Below are positions 3,318 to 52,610 of a stretch of DNA of 64,000 nt, piece after piece. Each line of letters starts with the position of its first letter. The stretch's first letter is position 1. The stretch is from Tubulanus polymorphus. Taxonomy: Eukaryota; Nemertea; Palaeonemertea; Tubulaniformes; Tubulanidae. The notes beneath the pieces were generated by a model that searched no databases, was not told the DNA's origin, and was given only the letters and a program-made list of their open reading frames with translations. The DNA lies in NCBI RefSeq assembly GCF_964204645.1, contig NC_134026.1, positions 20,850,650 through 20,914,649 of the forward strand, written 5' to 3'. Both the position numbers and the translations under genes were made by a program.

Positions 3318-3489
3318 TACGGAGCCCGGAGGTGACATGGTGAAAAATGAATATTTTTTATCGTAGGAACGAAATAATCTTTTCGTTGGAACGAAATGAA
3401 AAAAAAAGATTTCGTTCGAACGAAAAGATTATTTCGTTCTTACGAAAAGAAATATTTACTTTTCACCGTGTCACCTCCGGGGCTCCGTA
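3318..3489. mobile_element. foldback (MITE-like) element
   Basis: The two arms are near-perfect inverted copies. The left begins TACGGAGCCCGGAGGTGACA and the right ends TGTCACCTCCGGGGCTCCGT followed by A. They meet at a short A-rich loop around 3,398-3,408, and the inner arms carry repeated TTTCGTT/AACGAAA blocks. Almost the whole element would fold into one long hairpin. No transposase is present. Confidence 0.8.
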
Positions 3490-5061: not shown

Positions 5062-5317
5062 CCATCCTCCCCCGGCAGGGATTCGAACCTGATGGCATCG
5101 AGTTTGCCACGGTACGAAACCCTGCCACACTAGACCGAGTTATGGTTCTTCCGTGAAATTTACCTCAGCGATTATACAACGAGCAATCTCATTGGTGCCG
5201 CAACTTTTCGCGCGGCAAAGCTGCGCATGTACCTGCGCACCCGGTCTTGTGGCAGGTTCGTGCCGTGGCTGAGTGTAGCGATGCCATCAGGTTCGAATCC
5301 CTGCCGAGGGTGGATGG
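5062..5317. mobile_element. foldback pair with tRNA-like ends
   Basis: Two arms of about 60 bp face each other. Each ends in a tRNA B-box-like core, GGTTCGAATCC, next to GATGCCATCAG, and the arm tips read CCATCC...GGATGG. The arms differ by small indels in the A-box-like part. Neither folds into a full cloverleaf with a paired acceptor stem, so these are tRNA-derived repeat ends rather than tRNA genes. Confidence 0.65.
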
Positions 5318-7640: not shown

Positions 7641-9655
7641 GAAGAAGAGCCGGGCACAAGTACTAGTCAGACGGTCAATCCGAAGAAAACTAAGAGTAAA
7701 CCATTACGAAAACCAGGTAATTAGGAAAACGCGATGAAGTAAACACGATTATTTTTCACTGGGTAAATCTTGAGGAATTACCGGTATATTTGAAAGAGTC
7801 AAAGTGATCGAAAATGTCTGTAGATTTAAGAGCACCCAGGGGACTGAAATTTATCTCAATTTGCTGTAAATGAATAAGCTCCCTTTCCCGTCTCTGGCTC
7901 CCTCTCCCGTCTCCGGCTCGGTATCCGTCTCCCCCTCCGTCTCTCGCTTCCGTCTCCCTCTCCTGTCTCCGGCTCCGTCTCCCTCTCCCTCTCCCAACTC
8001 ATATTCAAATCACCAAATCGTGACTAGAAGTCCATCAGCTGAATGCCTGAATGTGTTTGCCTGTTTTTCCCCTGAATATTTTTTCACCGTCGATGTGCCG
8101 CGGTCTCCGATATAAGGCAGACGGACAATGTAAACGAGATAATTACGCGTTCGCCGTGAATGCGGTTCGATTCCGGCTGTATTCCTCGCACCATTCCATC
8201 AGGATATTAAAACTTAAACAGTAAACGCGAAATACCGCGACGCCGATTGTTCAATAGATCGGATTATTAATCGCGTATTAATGAAATTGACTCGTCCGAC
8301 ACCGGAGGCTTTTTGTGATTTTCATTCTTTACAAATGCGCAGCGGAAATGATACGTTATAAATGAAAAGCGACACGGATTATCAGGGGCCATTTCGTGCG
8401 CGCCCGTCCGTCGACTTTTGTTTCTAGCCTAGCGCAACTGAAATTAACCTTCGTTCATTAGACCAATCCTGTCAATTATAGAAATGAAAACGACGAGGCC
8501 GGTTCTTTTTTATGGATCGACTTCATTCCTTTACATACTAGGTTTAGAGGTTTAGCTTCGATCGTGAGAATCATCAATCTATCAGGCACATTCCCTAAGA
8601 TATAAGTCACCACAAGGGTGGCATAATCCATTCTTATGCGATTGGTATTTGTGGAGAAAACGAAGGCGTTCACTGGTATTAAAGTTGTTTTGAAATCACA
8701 TAAGGCCATTATATGGGGTATTTATGAAGATTGCCATATTTTCTGAAGGACGGGAGCTATGAATGTTCAATTCCACGCGCGCTTTTTCGTCCAATGTAAG
8801 GGCAGTAATATCCGATCTTCCAAATCAATTTCCTATTGGTCTTATACAACAATAAAACTAACTTCAGGTTTCTTAATGCCTTGAAGAATAATACATACAT
8901 TGCTTGGTTATTTTCGACGATGAATGATATGATATAAATCGTAAAGATCAATGAAGTTATTTTGGATTCGACATCGATAATTGAATTGAATTGACCGGCA
9001 ACCAGTCTAGCCCCGATATATCGATGGCGTATATCCTCTCAAAAATAATCGTTCAAACTTATCAAATTATGAAACAACAGTTATGAAATATATCTATTTA
9101 CGAAATGAACGCCAAAATTCACAATTGTAATTGTTATTTTGAAACGCCAATATTGATGACGCAGTGCACATCAACTCGCATAGAGCCACCCCTAAAATAA
9201 TGCATACTATTATTGTAACGGTTTCTACGGAGTAAAAAAACTACCCAGTGAGAGGGACATTTTATAAGTGTTACCTTCAACGTTTTCCTACTAAATCAAC
9301 ACAACGAATGGAGGGAATTTCATAAACGATTTAAATTAATGGTTTCACTGCGTTTAGCGAAACTGCAACCGGAACCCAATCTTGCGATCTATTATAAAAC
9401 TTGATTAATTCATCGAAAATGAACTAATGATTTGAATTATTGCCAAGAATATGAAATTGAACTTATTACGCGGGTGTCATGAAGACGTATAAGACGTTTT
9501 GATTAAACTATTGACACGTTGTACTCGATTTACGATTTACACATTGTTTCTTATCTATTTCAGAATACAACCCGCTAAGCGGAGCCGGTAATGACGGATT
9601 TTGCTATCGGCCGTCGAGATTTGGCGGAGGCGGTGTTGGGGGTGGATGAGGTTAA
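7641..9655 (+). CDS. SELENOS: selenoprotein S (VIMP), last two coding exons
   Basis: Selenoprotein S is an ER membrane protein that links Derlins to p97/VCP in ER-associated degradation. Two exons are visible: 7,641-7,716 and 9,564-9,655. The first has an AG acceptor after TATATTTTTAG, a GTAATT donor and encodes EEEPGTSTSQ...KSKPLRKP. The second follows TCTATTTCAG and encodes EYNPLSGAG...FCYRPSRF then a Gly-rich tail. These match the family's conserved PGPSTSS, KPLR, YNPLSGEGGG, WRPGRRG and GGUG blocks in order. The frame reaches UGA at 9,647-9,649, then GGT and TAA (9,653-9,655), so the end reads Gly-Gly-Sec-Gly as in vertebrates. Phase across the intron is consistent. Exons for the N-terminal membrane segment and helix were not found and probably lie upstream of the window. 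Confidence 0.88.
7886..7999 (+). repeat. pyrimidine-rich simple repeat
   Basis: Degenerate copies of a CTCCGTCTCC-like unit form a nearly pure C/T run with scattered G, in the last intron of the selenoprotein S gene. The short open frame across it encodes low-complexity Pro/Ser and is not a gene. Confidence 0.75.
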
Positions 9656-9893
9656 TTTTCACGGTGTAAATGATATTTTCGTATCGCGGTCCCGAGTTTG
9701 ATATTTCGTGATGCGCGCACTATATGCACGTCGATATCTCTTTCGATGGGACACCAACCGAACTAAATGAAGTTCACTTTTTCGGGTTCTAAAAGCTGAG
9801 CGTTGATTTATAGCAAATCGCACGGAGTCAAACCGCAGTCAGCGGCAATGTCTTTATAGGCCTGCGTATAACGACGAACCTGCGAACCGTCGT

Positions 9894-9899
9894 AATAAA
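9894..9899 (+). terminator. AATAAA polyadenylation signal upstream of the SECIS
   Basis: A canonical hexamer sits 239 nt after the selenoprotein S stop but before the SECIS. Cleavage here would remove the SECIS, so the productive mRNA must end further on; ATTAAA at 10,485-10,490 is a candidate. Confidence 0.35.
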
Positions 9900-9933
9900 G
9901 CCTTCTTAATCCGGATCATTTGCGATGATGAAA

Positions 9934-10024
9934 TTCATCCTGTTATGAGAAGTGGACTGTAAGTAACGTCCGGATCGGTTTAATCCAGACATTATTTACA
10001 GTCGGTAACTGATAACCGGATGAA
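9934..10024 (+). promoter_or_regulatory. SECIS element (form 2-like) of selenoprotein S
   Basis: A SECIS recruits SBP2 and the Sec-specific elongation factor so that UGA is read as selenocysteine. Hand folding gives helix I TTCATCC-T-GTT (9,934-9,944) with AAC-C-GGATGAA (10,014-10,024); quartet ATGA (9,945-9,948) opposite TGAT (10,010-10,013); helix II including GGACTGT with ACAGTC; the required AA at 9,961-9,962, 12 nt after the quartet; and a small helix III (GTCcGGAT with ATCCaGAC) typical of form 2. It lies about 280 nt after the stop, a normal position. An outer perfect inverted repeat, TTAATCCGGATC (9,906-9,917) and its complement (10,041-10,052), encloses it. The fold was not computed. 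Confidence 0.75.
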
Positions 10025-10179
10025 CGTCGCCGCCACAAGCGATCCGGATTAATCGGGTTTAATATACGCTTTTGCTTTTTCGCCTGATGCGTCAGAATCT
10101 ACCGGGTGTCTGTTACCGGAAAGTTTGTCCCATTTTCAATGATTTTTCAAAGCTCTGATCTATTATTAGGGGATTCCAT

Positions 10180-10400
10180 TGGAACGGCCCACAGAGACTA
10201 GGCACGGTCACACCGCCGTTATTAAGACCGGTCTAGATTTGACCCGTTCCAATTTGGAGCGTACCAATCGTTCACATTTGCGGAAAGTCCGTTCCAAATG
10301 GTCCGTTCCATTTTAGACCGATCCAGTTTGGACCGACCTAAACGACCGAACCAGGTCCGTTGTAAATTTGGCCTGTTTCAGGTGCGTACCAATGTGGACC
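10180..10400 (+). repeat. degenerate tandem repeat (CCGTTCCA-type)
   Basis: Repeated blocks such as CCGTTCCAATTTGG, GTCCGTTCCAAATGG, GTCCGTTCCATTTTAG and CCGATCCAGTTTGGACC recur about every 15-20 bp. An open frame over it (10,298-10,489) has a shape explained by the repeat. Confidence 0.55.
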
Positions 10401-11046
10401 AGTGTAATAGTGGTAATGCGAACGCCGCTATTGAGGTCGCTGGTATTGGGCCATGCTTTTCTTTAGACTCGGTGGCAACGTACTATTAAATATAAAATAT
10501 GAACCAAATGAGTACCTGCATGCTCCCACCTAAATCTACATCTTTCCGGTTTGTCGACAATAATACCCAGTTGACCTTTCGATCAATCGTATAATTATTT
10601 ACAGTCAGAATGTGTGATAAAGCCTACCAGAAGCTGGCCAGCAGCGGTGGGCTTTGTCACCCGCTAATGTACCTGTTTAATTGTTCGCGTTAATGAAGTT
10701 ATTTGTAATCACTTAGTTGCCCATAGTGTCGCTAACTGCGGTTTGACCTCTCCCTCGCTCTCTCTTTCTCTTCCCGGTGATAGCTGCAAACACACTAAAA
10801 TTAATATTGCAGCGTGTTTATCATCACGAGTACAAGTATATTAAACCATGGACACACGTCCATGATTAAACGCGTATGTTTATTGGTATACAAGCAAACG
10901 TGTACTCTGGTGATGATAATTGGTGTTTGATCACCGCCGCCGGCAATTCGAAAACTCGCACGTCGACTTTCGTGAGTACTGACGTCGCATCGTGAAATGT
11001 ACATCCCCCGAACTGCGATACACACCGTGAAGATTAACTAATTGTT

Positions 11047-11257
11047 CAGGGGCGGATCTAGGGCGGAATAGGGCACCCCAAAAGAAAGCTCATCGGAAAG
11101 CATCATCTTTCTGAAATACAGTGAAGAAGCTTATGAATTTAAACTTATTGAGGTATCAGTTTAATATTTTTTTCATTTCCCCGTCATATTTCAGGGTAAC
11201 TTGACATGTTTAGGGGGTGCGCACTCCCTGCGCCCCCTCCCCTTGGATCCGCCCCTG
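11047..11257. mobile_element. hAT-like non-autonomous element
   Basis: The ends are CAGGGGCGGATC and its inverted GATCCGCCCCTG, a terminus seen in many small hAT-type elements. The interior is non-coding. No clear 8-bp target duplication is visible. A diverged relative lies at 42,066-42,317 in an EVC2 intron. Confidence 0.55.
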
Positions 11258-12810
11258 TTGTACATTTTAAGCATTGACATGATTATATTGGTTCCGTGAC
11301 GCGGTGGAGGCTGGATTTTTGAACGGGTATTTTGAGAATTTTTAGTTTTGTTGTCCGAAAAACTAATTTTATGAGCATGAATATGAAATTGAGAAAGGAC
11401 GACGTGGTTCTTTCCCTGAACGAAATTTTCCCGCACATCTAAATTTCTAATAAAACCATCGTAAAAACCCAATTTCAGCGTTCATTTTTAATGTAAAACA
11501 CTTAATTATCAAAATTGGAAACGCTATTCGCAAAATGTTATGTTATGATTAGCAAATATTCGGTTTGATGCGCGAGTTTGATGAGCGTTGGAAATTCACC
11601 TCTGGGAATACGTCGAAACTGATTGAATAAATAATGCCGGTTTTTTACTGGCGTTGGAAGCATGAAATGTTAAAATCTTGATTTGAATTTTTCAAGACCT
11701 AATTTGCCACAGATTTCGTCGTGGCAATAATTTTTCCCTAGGTACAATAAACGTCTAGAACCTCGTATCGACGCAATTGAGTCCAAATTCCAGGTATCGT
11801 GAAAAAACTGATCGTTGTAACCAACAGGAAAATTAATTTTGATAAATTTTTTGACGCCTTTGGAGTAGTTTGTATTCGATAAATCATTTGAGATATTATC
11901 TATTAGCGTATTATCTTTTCATCAAAATCTAAGTAGCGCCAGGTTATTCTTAGAAATTAAACGTAGCATCCGCTAGTAGAGTTTCCCAAGCCACTTTTCA
12001 ATTCAATTCATTTTATTGCTCAAAAATTTACATACAGCAAAACAAAACATTCCAATAGTTACGGAAACATACAATATGGCTTGAGATGAATTTCAATCCT
12101 CTTACAATTTCTCTTGAACTTGTCTCAAGTGAAGTGGAACCTCATAACCAACTTGGATAATGATTCTTCCTATGTAACTATTTAGAGTAAACCTCGGACT
12201 TACGAATCATTTTTCTGACTTCTCAACGATTTTTCCTATCCTTTACTCGGACTTCGCTTACCTCGGACCAATTTTGCCGGTCGCAGTTTGTCCCCGAGTT
12301 AGGCGAGGCTTATTAGGAATTTGGACTCAAAATGCTATATCTTTCATACCGATCGCGCTCAATTCGAAATCCAACAAACAGATTTTCTTGTTCCGTGAAA
12401 TTCGTAGCAACGATTTACTGATTTACTCCACCTCGGTATCTCGTTTTTATTCAGTATCGCCGTTCGAAGAATTAGGGCAGTATCATTCTTATTATTAAAC
12501 TCGCCCGGTATCGTATTTTATACGCGAAACGTGTTGCTTCTGTTTAGCGTACGTTTCAGTTGTCGGAAATGAATATTTGCTTTTTTATCTCTGCGCCACG
12601 ACGCGATGGCTTCTCCGCGCGCGCTTAAAAATTATTGTCTTAGCGTCGTGTGTGTAAATCACGGCAAATTTCGCTGCCGGTGCGACTTATATTGCTTGCT
12701 CTACGAATCAACTGACCGTCGTTGTCGTCGTCATCGAATGGGATGGCTAAAAATACGACGACGCTTTCGAGTCACTATAGATTATAACAACTCTGGAAAC
12801 TGAATTGACC

Positions 12811-12995
12811 ACAGTAGACTTCGCTCTCGGAGTCTGAACTTTTTAGGCCGTAAAATATGTCCGACTTGAGTGATATCCGAGTTGGATGTTATGTTTTTGA
12901 TTCAGTGTCACAGAAAATGTATATTAAAAAAGAGAAACATCTAAGTTGAACAGTTATCCGAGTGGATCGGATCCGACTTGGGCGGAGTCTACTGT
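12811..12995. mobile_element. pogo/mariner-like MITE
   Basis: Inverted ends ACAGTAGACTTCGC and GCGGAGTCTACTGT bound about 185 bp of non-coding DNA containing ATCCGAG-type blocks. Single ends of the same kind occur at 30,815, 45,475 and 46,178. Confidence 0.5.
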
Positions 12996-15900
12996 ATTTG
13001 GGTCCACACTCTTCTGTCAGATCGCCGAGGCGACGCCCGCGGTTGCGATGGATGAAACGTAACCTTTAGGACAAGCCACTGCCAAGGCACGTCATGGGGG
13101 GGAGGAGACCTTATACAATTTTTTTGATATGATATGACAAAAGTGGTGGGGCCCCAATTCCGTCTTGAATAGATAGAGCAATTCCTTTGTCTAGAAGCCT
13201 GGAAATTCTACGACTGTGTTACGAATCTCAATTAATTTTTTAGTCATCGGTATACCACGCTTTATTTTCATTAGCGTCGATATCGATATCTTTCGTTTTA
13301 CAAAAGCACGTAAAGAAAGCCTCAACATTCTTTCATAAATCATCCCAAGAATCCAGCCTTTGCACTGCCGCGTGTTTATACATCATGTTCGAATGAAACT
13401 TGTTTCCATAAAGGGTTCTGAACCATTGGAGCACGTGGATAAGATTGTTCTAAAATGTACACGAAAAAATATACCACTTCGATCCTGGAATAATCGAGAA
13501 AAACCTTTCTTTATCATCGCAGGGTTTCATTCGACTTATTCCCCGCTCATTCAATGTAAAGAAGAAACTCTTTCAGTGACTTGATATGTGATTAAGGTGT
13601 TATTCATAAAGTACTGAATGTATATGACGTGTTTAGAAACAGCGTGTAATACAGGGTGTGTCAGAAAATGTGTTACCGAAACTTTAAGAATAATTATTCG
13701 TTAAGTATGATAGTAGTTAATTGTAGTACGTTTATTGATTAAAATCGCAGGTGATGAATAATACAGGTAACACGGCTTAGGAGACACTGTACTTTATGAA
13801 CTTGCCTTAAGGCAGAAGTACATTTCATAAACAGACGAAATACGATAATGTATTAATTAGCTCTTGTTTAAGTCTGAAGATGAGTGTTTAAGTTATTGAC
13901 TGAATGTTTTTCAAACTATTATTATATCTGTATTGAATGGAATGTATATGAGCTTATTTCTGTCACTGTTTCGTCCATTGCAATAAAAGATGAAGTAAAT
14001 CAAATAACTTTATTCAGTTTGTGGTTTTTTTTCAATAATTTTGATGAAAATCGGCTGAAGACAATGCCCGCAATGTCAGTATCATCATTGGACGTGTAAA
14101 TCTACCCTCAAATGGATTCAGGCCAATCTATTCGGTTATATATTCATTTCGCTTGAGAAGACATTTTATTATGTATAAATGCAGGCTAATTCCATGCTTA
14201 GTCTTCTGGGTTTAACTTTAAGCGTGGACTCTAAAACGAAAGCTAACGTAACGATCGAAGGCGGCCGTTTCATTTCACGTCCCTTCGTTTTAGTGTCCGT
14301 GCTTATAAAGTACCGTCTACGGAACTACGGATGAACCTTGTTTTACATGTAATGAACATGCAACAATACTACACGCATTCTAAGAAAGTCATTTACCTAC
14401 GCATTATACCTTTCGGTCAGTTTAAAAGGTAGCTGTTACATGACCTACTACATGTACTTATTTTTATCTCGGCTACACGACCACAGCTGACCTCCCCATA
14501 ATTGGAAATACGTGACAAACTGAAGGATATTCAACCGCAAGTTTTGTGATACTGTGAATCGTCTTTTCGGCATGTTTATAGTAGTATTTCATAATAAATT
14601 TGACCCAAAAAAAACAATAAATACATGGAAATATCAAACCAAGATTGGCGGTATGTTGAATTTACAAAATCTTTTTATGAGTATTTACTTACTTTCGTGA
14701 ATACTTTCACTTAAATCAGAACTTAGGAGAAAATCACACATCTTCCATTTAATCTACGCCCCCTAGAAGAAAATTGCCCTTCTCCGAATAGAAACGTACT
14801 TCAGATGTCGTTTCAGATTCATACCGGTATTTGGGAACCGTATATTCAAACTTAAATTAGCAATATCAGGTGATATATCAATTAACAGAATTGTAGCTAT
14901 ATCACTTAATTGCTATTTACTTGTTTGACGTAGAACTTGTCAGCTTTTCATCAAAAGTATGATTATCACAATGAATAACAGTGCGTCAGTACGTTCCGTA
15001 TATCTGTAAACCTGAACACCACAAACAGGTTGACATTTCATACTGTCAAAATAACCCAATCGAATGAATAGGCTATACGTCACATTCTAAGCATAAGATG
15101 AGTTGTGGTATTTCAATATAGTTGTATAAGATGACTTTTACATACTTTTACGGCCGCTGTCTCAAGCATCAGATACCATAAGAATAGGAGAAAGCAAAAA
15201 AAGACTACTTGATCTCTTAAAAGCTCCTTCAAAACCGAAATGCTTTTAAAGATGCTTGAAACTCCCTTAATTTGGACGTAGGGTTGGCGTCACTAAACTT
15301 AAGACCCCCTAAACATAAAACATAAAGAGTCGTCATAGGAAAAAGCAAAAAGTAGTTTTCTTTTAAATCAAATATGAACGTTTTATTTTAGAAAAATATA
15401 GAACAAAACTCAAGTAGAAATATAGAAATATTACAATTATGTCTCTCCGTGGTAGATTTCATAATCATCTTTAAGCTTATATATAAAAGTGTTCGAACAA
15501 CGAATAAACTGTCTATCATCTAAAACTTAAAACATAATGTGTCTCTATAGGCAAATATTAAAGTTTAACATTGGTAAATTAACTTAGATCACATATTTAC
15601 AAAAACTTCAGTCGAATTTCCATAAAGCAGCTACGCATCTTGTGATTATCACGAACAATATTGTGTAAAAACGGTTTGCGAAGAAAGGGTATGTATGTGC
15701 ATTACAAATAAATTTCGTCCAAAAATGTTGCATATTGACGAGGTAAATTAGATTACCTTCGGACCTTAAACCAACGAACCGGTAACTGTTGGTTTCCATA
15801 CTAGAGATTAATGACGTTTCGACCACTACCCTCCGAGTTTTTCTTCAATATCTTCATGTCGCAGATATAAAAGTTTATATAAATGTCCCACATTCTAAAA

Positions 15901-31800: not shown

Positions 31801-34800
31801 CTGTTTTCAGCTGCGTCGCTGATGGCCATCAGCAGTTGTATTTTTTCGGGAAAGAAGATCGCAATATTGTCGACGTCGATCGATCTTCCTCCGCAGTTGA
31901 AAATTGGACAAACGATAACCGGTTCGGCTACATTCAGTATGCCATTGGGTACATTGAGCAACTTACAATTTCGTGCCGGTAAGTAGATAAATAGTTTGTA
32001 AGTTCATAAAAAAAATTATTTCATTTTCGATGTTCATTTACCATGAAAAGGGGTTAACCTTCTTTATTTGATTGGTAGATTCGATTTGATTTGATGGTGT
32101 CCCTTACAAACCCACCCATCGCTTTCGATGGTTTGACCCTACAGTCAAATTTTATCCAGAGGTTTAGAGGGTCTAAGTTAAAACAAGTTTATAGAACCGA
32201 CTGCATGGGGTTACAAGTTAGACCAGGTCCAGCGACTTATGTCCTGATATGAGTGGGTGTAGATGTTTCTCCCTGTACCTTCTGTTGCTAATTCTTTAGA
32301 TGCAATCTTTGTTTAGTTTCCAGTAAATTGCCTGGAATTCTTTAATTCATTGTTTACACTGGTTCTTCAGTGAGAAAACTTTTGTATTTGGAATCTTTAT
32401 TTCAGAATTTGGAAATTATGCGAAATCATTATAGGGCCTAACTGTTCATTTCGGCTGTTCTTATTTATCTTTTAGAAATCTATTCACCGGCAATGAATCC
32501 AGTTCCGTTTAAGATATACACGGCGACGGCTTCAGCTTCAAATCCACAAGTTCAGTTCACTAAAACATCTCTGACATCGACGGATTTCATCGCTACAGCG
32601 AAGCGGAGAAAAAGGCACGTCCGTAATCGACGAGCTTTGGCGCCTTCACTGGTGATTTCAGCTCCGTTTGGATCCGTCACTAATCCGAGTTCAGGTGTAT
32701 CGGGCACACCTATTGTTTTACAGGTATGGTCTGACGTACAAGTATATTCATTTGTGTTTTGCCGGTACATTCATAACCGTGTATATTATTGCGCCTCAGC
32801 TGGTAGGCCTCAAGCAGCATTGTCATCACTTACATCCATTACGGGGCGGGTGGTCGTCGGTTATCCAAGTGATTAATGATCCCGTATTTCAGAGTGTAGT
32901 ATTTTGGAATATTTTAGAGCCTTCATATTTACATGAAAAAGTTTCTGAATAGCATAGATCCAGTGTCACATGCAATATGACTGAAATTGGTGCTATGTAA
33001 ATAGTATATTATCCTCAAAATGTTACTTATTCTTAGGCACAAATGACAGCTGTAGCTGCTGGAGCTTTGCCTGGAGGGTATCTAGAATTGACACCGTATC
33101 TTGATTTAAACGTCTTGACACCGCTCCACACTATTTCCTCAGTCATTCAAATGCCAGTGTTGAATATACAGAAAACAGTGCAGGTACGAAATCGTGTTAA
33201 TTTTATTTGTCTCGATTCAGCGGAATATATTTCTATTGATTCGGTGGATTTTCCTGATAATAATAATGATAATAATAATTTATTCTCTTTTATACCGAAG
33301 TACTATAAAATAACCACTGCACTTTACAATAAAATTAAGACAATAGAAAACCATGTCTTTTTATGCTTAGAAAAGAATGGGTTTTTTGCTTATAAAAGGT
33401 CACCATATGAAGTCTAAGCAATGATAACTTTTGGGTATCATATTGAGCTAGGCAAGAAGACATTGATATGAAAAACCTGTTTATGTTTATTTCATTCATA
33501 ATTGAGCCTAATTATCTTGTTCATGACTAATTGTCACAACTAGGGTTAAACCTAATAAGATAAAAACCCACTATGTACAAATTAAAAGAATTTTAAAATA
33601 GAGAATTTGTTTATTCAAAAAATCTAAAATGAAATACATCGTCAGGTCACACCTGACGATGATCTCTAGGGTAAGATTGAAACGTTGTGTATTTCATTTT
33701 AGATTTTTTGAATAAATAAATTCTTGATTTTAAAATTCTTTAAATTTGTACATAGTGGGTTTTTATCTTATCATCCGTTCTCCACGTTTGAGTGTGGTTA
33801 TCGTACTATCAGGGTGAAGCCTACCGGGTATATGAACCTTTTAAATGGATGAAATATCATATAGGCCGGATGGTATTTGTTTCGTATAATTCATGGTTCA
33901 TACATTCAGCGAAGAAATTTTCCATAAAAAGATTTTTTTTCTTCTTATTCCAACTTATAGAACACAACGAAAACCAATACAAACAGTATCCCTAAAGTGG
34001 AGTTTCAAGTTCAAATTTCTCATGCTCCCTCCTCGAATTCGGACGCTTACGATTTGAAATTGACCGATAAAACAATGAAATTGGAATCATACCCAGGAGA
34101 TGGCATGGTACCGTCACCAAAACCTAATTCGCTAAAAATTGGCGGTGCCAGCAGTCCGGATTTCATTTGGAACTATGGTCAACTTCCAGGTAAGTTGGAC
34201 ATCATGAAATTGACTTACATACTTAGGTTGCTAGTTGCTACACTGATGGATAGAGTCTGCTCTGAACAGGTGGCTCCAGAATAAAGCAATGTGTAGTATT
34301 TGTTAAACCTCTGGGGCTGGTTTTATAGACTGGTATTACCTTTAATCCGAGGGCTAACTCAATAGAAAATGAGTTGAATTAGCCCCCCGGGTTAAAGGCA
34401 ATACCCGTCTATAAAACCTGACCCTGTGGTTCAAGTCTGCTGACCTCTAGATACTGTACCGGTTATTCTCTGAAATCTTTTGCAATACATGATTTATTTA
34501 CGCATGGCTTCAGTCGTAAAGAGTCAATAGCTTACGTAACTATGTCTTATTGTTTATTGTCATTGCGATTATTTCTTTCTCCTTTCCATCGTTTTAGTGG
34601 GATCAAATTTGACGTTGAGATATTTGGCAGCCCCGAGTTCCGAAGCAACTTCCATTTTACCCAATGGAACGACCGTGTTTCCAGCTTCTGTTGATTATTA
34701 TGGTTCTACTTTGGCCGGCGTAATTGCTGTAAGTTATCGTTGTCCGCAAAAGTCGATTAGAATGATGTGGCTAGCGCAATGAAGATCCAATATTAGTAGT

Positions 34801-52358: not shown

Positions 52359-52610
52359 TTAGCGGGGGCGCCAAAACCGAATGTTCTTTGTTTTGGCGCG
52401 CCAAAACGAACTTTCAGAGAAAATTGGACGTTTTTCGTTGTTTTAGTGGGGGCGCCAAAACGAAAGTTCGTTTTGGCGGGGGTGCCAAAATGAAAGTTCG
52501 TTTTGGCGGCGGCGCCAAAACGGAATATTCTTTGTTTTGGCGCGCCAAAACGAACTTTCAGAGAAAATTGAACGTTTTTTTTTTTCGTTTTGTCGTTCTG
52601 GCGCCCTCAC
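52359..52610. repeat. duplicated array of E2F-like palindromes
   Basis: TTTTGGCGCGCCAAAA, a perfect 16-bp palindrome, occurs at 52,391-52,406 and 52,535-52,550. Further GGCGCCAAAA and TTTTGGCGG blocks lie between and around them. The surrounding unit of about 70 bp, including GAACTTTCAGAGAAAATTG, is duplicated with a 144-bp offset. A 128-codon open frame across it (52,319-52,705) consists of translated repeat and is not a gene. Confidence 0.85.

Follow-up and report, generated by a model that had tools for sequence, protein, structure and literature searches.

A six-exon SELENOS gene with a penultimate UGA codon and a candidate SECIS hairpin in the nemertean Tubulanus polymorphus

The window analyzed here, a 64,000-nt stretch of the Tubulanus polymorphus genome (contig C2:20850650-20914649, plus strand; genome of 267.8 Mb in 77 contigs), contains the 3' end of a six-exon selenoprotein S gene (SELENOS, VIMP) that spans approximately 58 kb. 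In the reading we favor, to which we give a probability of roughly 0.65, the penultimate codon of this gene, a UGA, specifies selenocysteine (Sec), and the SECIS element is most likely the core of a hairpin in the 3' UTR (Table 1). The mRNA would then encode an ER-membrane selenoprotein (a location taken from the known family) with Sec as its penultimate residue, and Sec-tRNA[Ser]Sec would decode the UGA with the aid of that SECIS. This scheme presumes Sec decoding of the UGA, a transcript that contains the hairpin, and a SECIS core taken up by the bound hairpin, though the lowest-energy fold of the hairpin pairs the AA of that core.

SELENOS with Sec is already known from invertebrates, and the gene described here is a further member of a known family. 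In the selenoprotein listing of a six-invertebrate survey (PMC3473315), SelS is given as a selenoprotein in Amphimedon, Nematostella, and Branchiostoma and is absent from the entries for Trichoplax, Lottia, and Capitella. What the locus adds is a complete SELENOS gene model and an illustration of a gene easily broken by standard annotation, with two of its six exons in the window, a 48.8-kb fourth intron, and a UGA taken as a stop. Its odd hairpin is also a test case for how far a natural SECIS may depart from the textbook fold.

Table 1. Features of the SELENOS locus and of the selenocysteine machinery and control SECIS hairpins of the same genome.
Feature	Position	Strand	Basis or description
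SELENOS exon 1	C2:20802459-20802624	+	ATG-initiated open frame, picked by eye
SELENOS exon 2	C2:20803884-20804024	+	AG/GT borders, phases fit
SELENOS exon 3	C2:20804673-20804779	+	AG/GT borders, phases fit
SELENOS exon 4	C2:20809415-20809504	+	Located by splice-border search
SELENOS exon 5	C2:20858290-20858365 (window 7641-7716)	+	EEEPGTSTSQTVNPKKTKSKPLRKP; phase 0 in, phase 1 out
SELENOS exon 6, coding part	C2:20860213-20860304 (window 9564-9655)	+	Pfam, splice border, frame
In-frame UGA, probable Sec codon	window 9647-9649	+	Penultimate codon; Gly and stop after
Near-palindromic hairpin, 147 nt	window 9906-10052	+	Fold energy; single copy found
SECIS-like core, candidate	window 9934-10024	+	Ten-pair helix I, ATGA 9945-9948, AA 9961-9962, TGAT 10010-10013
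tRNA-Sec, first locus	C3:4932292-4932377		Separate locus; anticodon TCA (ARAGORN)
tRNA-Sec, second locus	C1:10220108-10220193		Separate locus; anticodon TCA (ARAGORN)
Control SECIS, GPx	L023:439-502	minus	Textbook hairpin near GPx match
Control SECIS, SelK	L011:2505		Textbook hairpin near SelK match
Control SECIS, Rdx family	L014:2463		Textbook hairpin near Rdx-family match; Sec codon not located there

A SELENOS gene divided by a long intron

A search of the genome with the Pfam profile PF06936 returned a single match, C2:20804666-20804782, which lies to the left of the window; this search works per exon, and both exons inside the window went unreported. We assembled the gene model from a joined sequence of 114 kb, made up of the window and the 50 kb to its left and containing no N runs. 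Only exons 5 and 6 fall within the window, while exons 1-4 are located 41-48 kb to the left of where it begins. The five introns measure 1259, 648, 4635, 48785, and 1847 bases. The AG/GT borders and phase of exon 5 agree with those of exons 4 and 6, and TCTATTTCAG directly precedes the start of exon 6. By itself, exon 1 is only weakly supported as a family member, with the Pfam match beginning at residue 52. A C-terminal exon closer to exon 4 was considered and rejected, as the NPL and GG-stop-G motifs coincide only at exon 6 in the 114 kb on both strands; single partial C-terminal motifs occur at five further places in the same sequence.

The spliced product is 223 residues long and matches Pfam Selenoprotein_S with an E-value of 8.5e-47 and 160 bits (cut-off 29.8) over residues 52-218, corresponding to profile positions 24-191 of 192 and thus to nearly the full length. 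Exons 5 and 6 alone score 36.8 bits and pass the same cut-off. Both results bear out the original prediction, which had assigned these two exons to SELENOS from the DNA of the window. In a PDB search, residues 96-152, in the coiled-coil region, matched 2q2f (E 1.5e-5) and 5kiu (E 1.9e-5), both SELENOS chains. A hydrophobic N-terminal stretch near AVILIKSYGWYIVLAVVAVAFL, noted by eye in the translation, may correspond to the one N-terminal transmembrane segment expected of Selenoprotein S. As in known Selenoprotein S, a C-terminal Cys is followed by the penultimate Sec codon and then by Gly and a stop, with Cys and Sec 15 residues apart here (207, 222) versus 14 in human SelS (Cys174/Sec188; PMC3628699). 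Unlike known members, the product has a glycine-rich tail, and the gene has the long fourth intron described above.

Six open frames downstream of the gene gave no Pfam match above the cut-off. Within intron 4 and outside the window, a minus-strand open frame at C2:20816781-20817200 (L003:6132-6551) has a signal-like start and ends in ...NKLMRYGRRR, resembling a neuropeptide precursor; it had no Pfam match at E-values up to 1.

The in-frame UGA and the Sec machinery

Exon 6 translates as YNPLSGAGNDGFCYRPSRFGGGGVGGGUG, its frame carrying on through the TGA to Gly at 9650-9652 and the stop TAA at 9653-9655 (TGA GGT TAA). In known members of the SELENOS family, Gly is the usual last residue. Among the 2834 TGAs of the window, both strands included, just five are followed by an in-frame Gly and a stop, the SELENOS UGA being one of them. 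An end of the form GGG-UGA-Gly-TAA would thus be unlikely to arise by chance, although such a count is no proof of decoding.

The components for Sec insertion that we sought are present in the same genome. A tRNA-Sec model gave 23 matches, two of them above the gathering score (Table 1), and eight SepSecS exon matches cluster on C2. The SelK gene ends in GGG-UGA-GR and has a textbook SECIS whose ATGA begins 298 nt past the stop, and a GPx-family exon (L016) has a TGA in the catalytic position. For the Sep15/SelM gene of this genome, no SECIS was found. Given the Gly and stop after the UGA and the Sec machinery, the SELENOS UGA most likely encodes Sec, which is also the penultimate residue of human SelS (PMC3628699). 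The original prediction of a frame running through the UGA to Gly-Gly-Sec-Gly-stop holds to the base, and its expectation that standard annotation would halt at the UGA finds support in the 36 SelS protein records collected in PMC3628699, 22 of which lack Sec.

A hairpin with SECIS marks and an unusual fold

Downstream of the stop lies a near-palindromic hairpin whose arms (9895-9975/9983-10063) are 70% complementary. For 9905-10055, a stretch of 151 nt, the predicted folding energy is -66.6 kcal/mol (z -8.48), and none of 200 shuffles folded as well. When 1277 windows of 150 nt were ranked by energy (plus strand, step 50), the one starting at 9901 came fifth, behind those starting at 34301, 52451, 52401, and 3351; strong hairpins are therefore not rare in this stretch of DNA. 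Further strong inverted repeats were observed at 33555-33771, 3325-3481, 34303-34434, and 52440-52521. The SL1 stem-loop that mammalian SelS mRNAs have directly behind the stop is not evident here: the first 50 nt fold with a z of +0.84, a value equaled or bettered by 167 of 200 shuffles, and the first 56 nt with a z of +0.62.

The sequence marks of a SECIS that the original prediction had described in this hairpin were all found in place. The core starts 279 nt after the stop on the same strand, as compared to nt 320-441 of the 3' UTR for the SECIS of human SelS (PMC3628699). Its ten-pair helix I joins 9934-9940 to 10018-10024 and 9942-9944 to 10014-10016, the ATGA is faced by TGAT on the 3' side, AA follows 12 nt past the ATGA, and a third small helix forms between 9968-9975 and 9983-9990. 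In these respects, and in its position toward the 3' UTR, the hairpin is like a eukaryotic SECIS of form 2. In 200,000 trials, random hairpins with the same pairing had ATGA, AA, and TGA in register at a frequency of 0.0022. A scan for AA and TGA over both strands of the 114 kb found two places scoring -17.1 or better, namely this hairpin and a place outside the window, 47 kb to its left (-18.5), while a looser in-fold register test on 5692 windows of the same sequence, both strands, gave 11 rows representing 10 distinct places, the hairpin among them.

The fold itself departs from form 2. Both A residues of the AA are paired with a probability of 1.0 in the predicted ensemble, sitting inside a continuous 12-pair helix (GACUGUAAGUAA/UUAUUUACAGUC) in the predicted fold. 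Helix II beside the quartet pairs at 9 of 12 positions in the register originally proposed, with two A-A mismatches and one G-G mismatch, and in the symmetric register, the quartet position holds G.G rather than tandem G.A. The full hairpin, at 147 nt, is a further difference. Published requirements for the apical motif include three unpaired A or C (PMC3328465), and the same source knew of no form 1 SECIS in invertebrates as of 2012. Forcing the SECIS core onto the SELENOS hairpin requires 11.0 kcal/mol (5.4 when only the quartet is imposed, 5.6 when only the AA is freed) versus 1.4 for the SECIS hairpin of SelK, 0.8 for that of the Rdx family, and 4.1 for that of GPx. Two candidates at locus L013 that we did not accept as SECIS elements also cost just 1.4 and 0.8 kcal/mol; a high cost can therefore speak against a candidate, but a low one does not identify a SECIS. 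The form 2 assignment thus stands for sequence marks and position, whereas the paired AA speaks against it and helix II is poorly paired beside the quartet, leaving the hairpin as the best SECIS candidate found downstream of the stop.

Program-based support was assessed with a strict scan and with Rfam. The strict scan that recovers the control hairpins of SelK, the Rdx family, and GPx fails to recover the SELENOS hairpin. It also fires at L013 and L015, and at slightly looser limits at L017 and L018, and none of the candidates at these four loci was accepted as a SECIS element. Loci L012 and L016-L023 were scanned on both strands. With ATGA and AA only, it gave six background matches on the two strands of the 114 kb (two of them nearly coinciding on opposite strands), the best of which, at -21.4, outscored all three controls. 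Given these background matches and unaccepted candidates, the strict scan is not specific. In Rfam, no family reached its gathering score anywhere in the window, and searches of 9564-12000 and 9920-10040 at E-values up to 10 listed no SECIS family, the other families listed all being below gathering. When 12 loci with other selenoprotein-family matches were searched at E-values up to 5, SECIS_1 was reported for the GPx gene only, at 30.9 bits in L023, below the gathering score of 35, and again in L016, which contains a truncated stretch of that element; no SECIS match was returned for the hairpins of SelK and the Rdx family. The SECIS model search suggested with the original prediction therefore yielded no Rfam match, but this miss says little because Rfam also misses two of the three textbook SECIS hairpins of this genome. 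A MAFFT alignment of the SECIS hairpins misplaced the cores.

A weak, imperfect SECIS in a SELENOS gene may not be implausible, since the SECIS of human SelS is itself said to rank with the weakest for recoding (PMC3628699). In a binding table of PMC3328465, the entry for human SelS reads 25.9 nM in the first column, which we take to be for SBP2, the highest value among the rows considered.

Other readings of the UGA and the hairpin

The alternative that survives best, although we consider it unlikely, is that SELENOS does have a Sec UGA but is served by a SECIS further 3' or in a spliced UTR exon, making the hairpin an unrelated structure. Such a situation would account for a predicted fold that pairs the AA and has no clean helix II, and the window does contain other strong palindromes (3325-3481, 33555-33771, and 34303-34434). 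Moreover, the 3' UTR has a GT at window 9664, precisely 8 nt from its beginning, and in the account of human SelS in PMC3628699, a UTR donor at the equivalent 8-nt position splices out the SECIS; a single coincidence of this kind may be chance. However, the strict scan of 9650-30000 returned no candidate with AA or CC and just one weak place, 28881, when any apical dinucleotide was allowed, the loose scan of 9650-14650 ranked the hairpin best of three candidates (-17.1 versus -11.1 for the next), and the hairpin fits by strand, distance, and motif. As for the transcript end, an AATAAA at 9894, just upstream of the hairpin, could end the mRNA before it; later signals include ATTAAA at 10485 and AATAAA at 11449.

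That the UGA is a true stop, with SELENOS having lost or losing its Sec and the hairpin being a coincidence or a decayed SECIS, seems quite improbable to us. The deviation of the candidate from the genome's own SECIS pattern speaks for it, yet the Gly and stop after the UGA have been retained, tRNA-Sec and SepSecS are present, and the remaining protein is intact across the matched profile.

Very improbable, in our estimation, is a two-state SECIS in which the palindromic stem holds the AA and the quartet paired and only an opened or remodeled form recruits the Sec machinery; if true, the gene could switch the incorporation of Sec into its product.

Hardly credible is an origin of the hairpin from a transposable element of the fold-back type, bounded by TTAATCCGGATC and inserted in the 3' UTR: its perfect 12-bp inverted ends, and the presence of the 11-mer TTAATCCGGAT also at L004:4678 and L005:4775 (0.12 expected in the sequences scanned), speak for it, but a search of 9900-10060 against the genome matched only its own locus, on both strands (a DNA search may miss repeats), the paired-ends pattern occurs at the hairpin only, and the 12-mer occurs 145 times versus 112 for a reversed control, so the ends are unlike those of a repeat family. 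The hairpin may still derive from an old, diverged, single-copy transposable element. Elsewhere in the window, the segments 5062-5100 and 5279-5317 form arms that are 95% complementary and contain GGTTCGAATCCC, which we take to resemble tRNA box B; they are possibly tRNA-derived repeats in opposite orientation.
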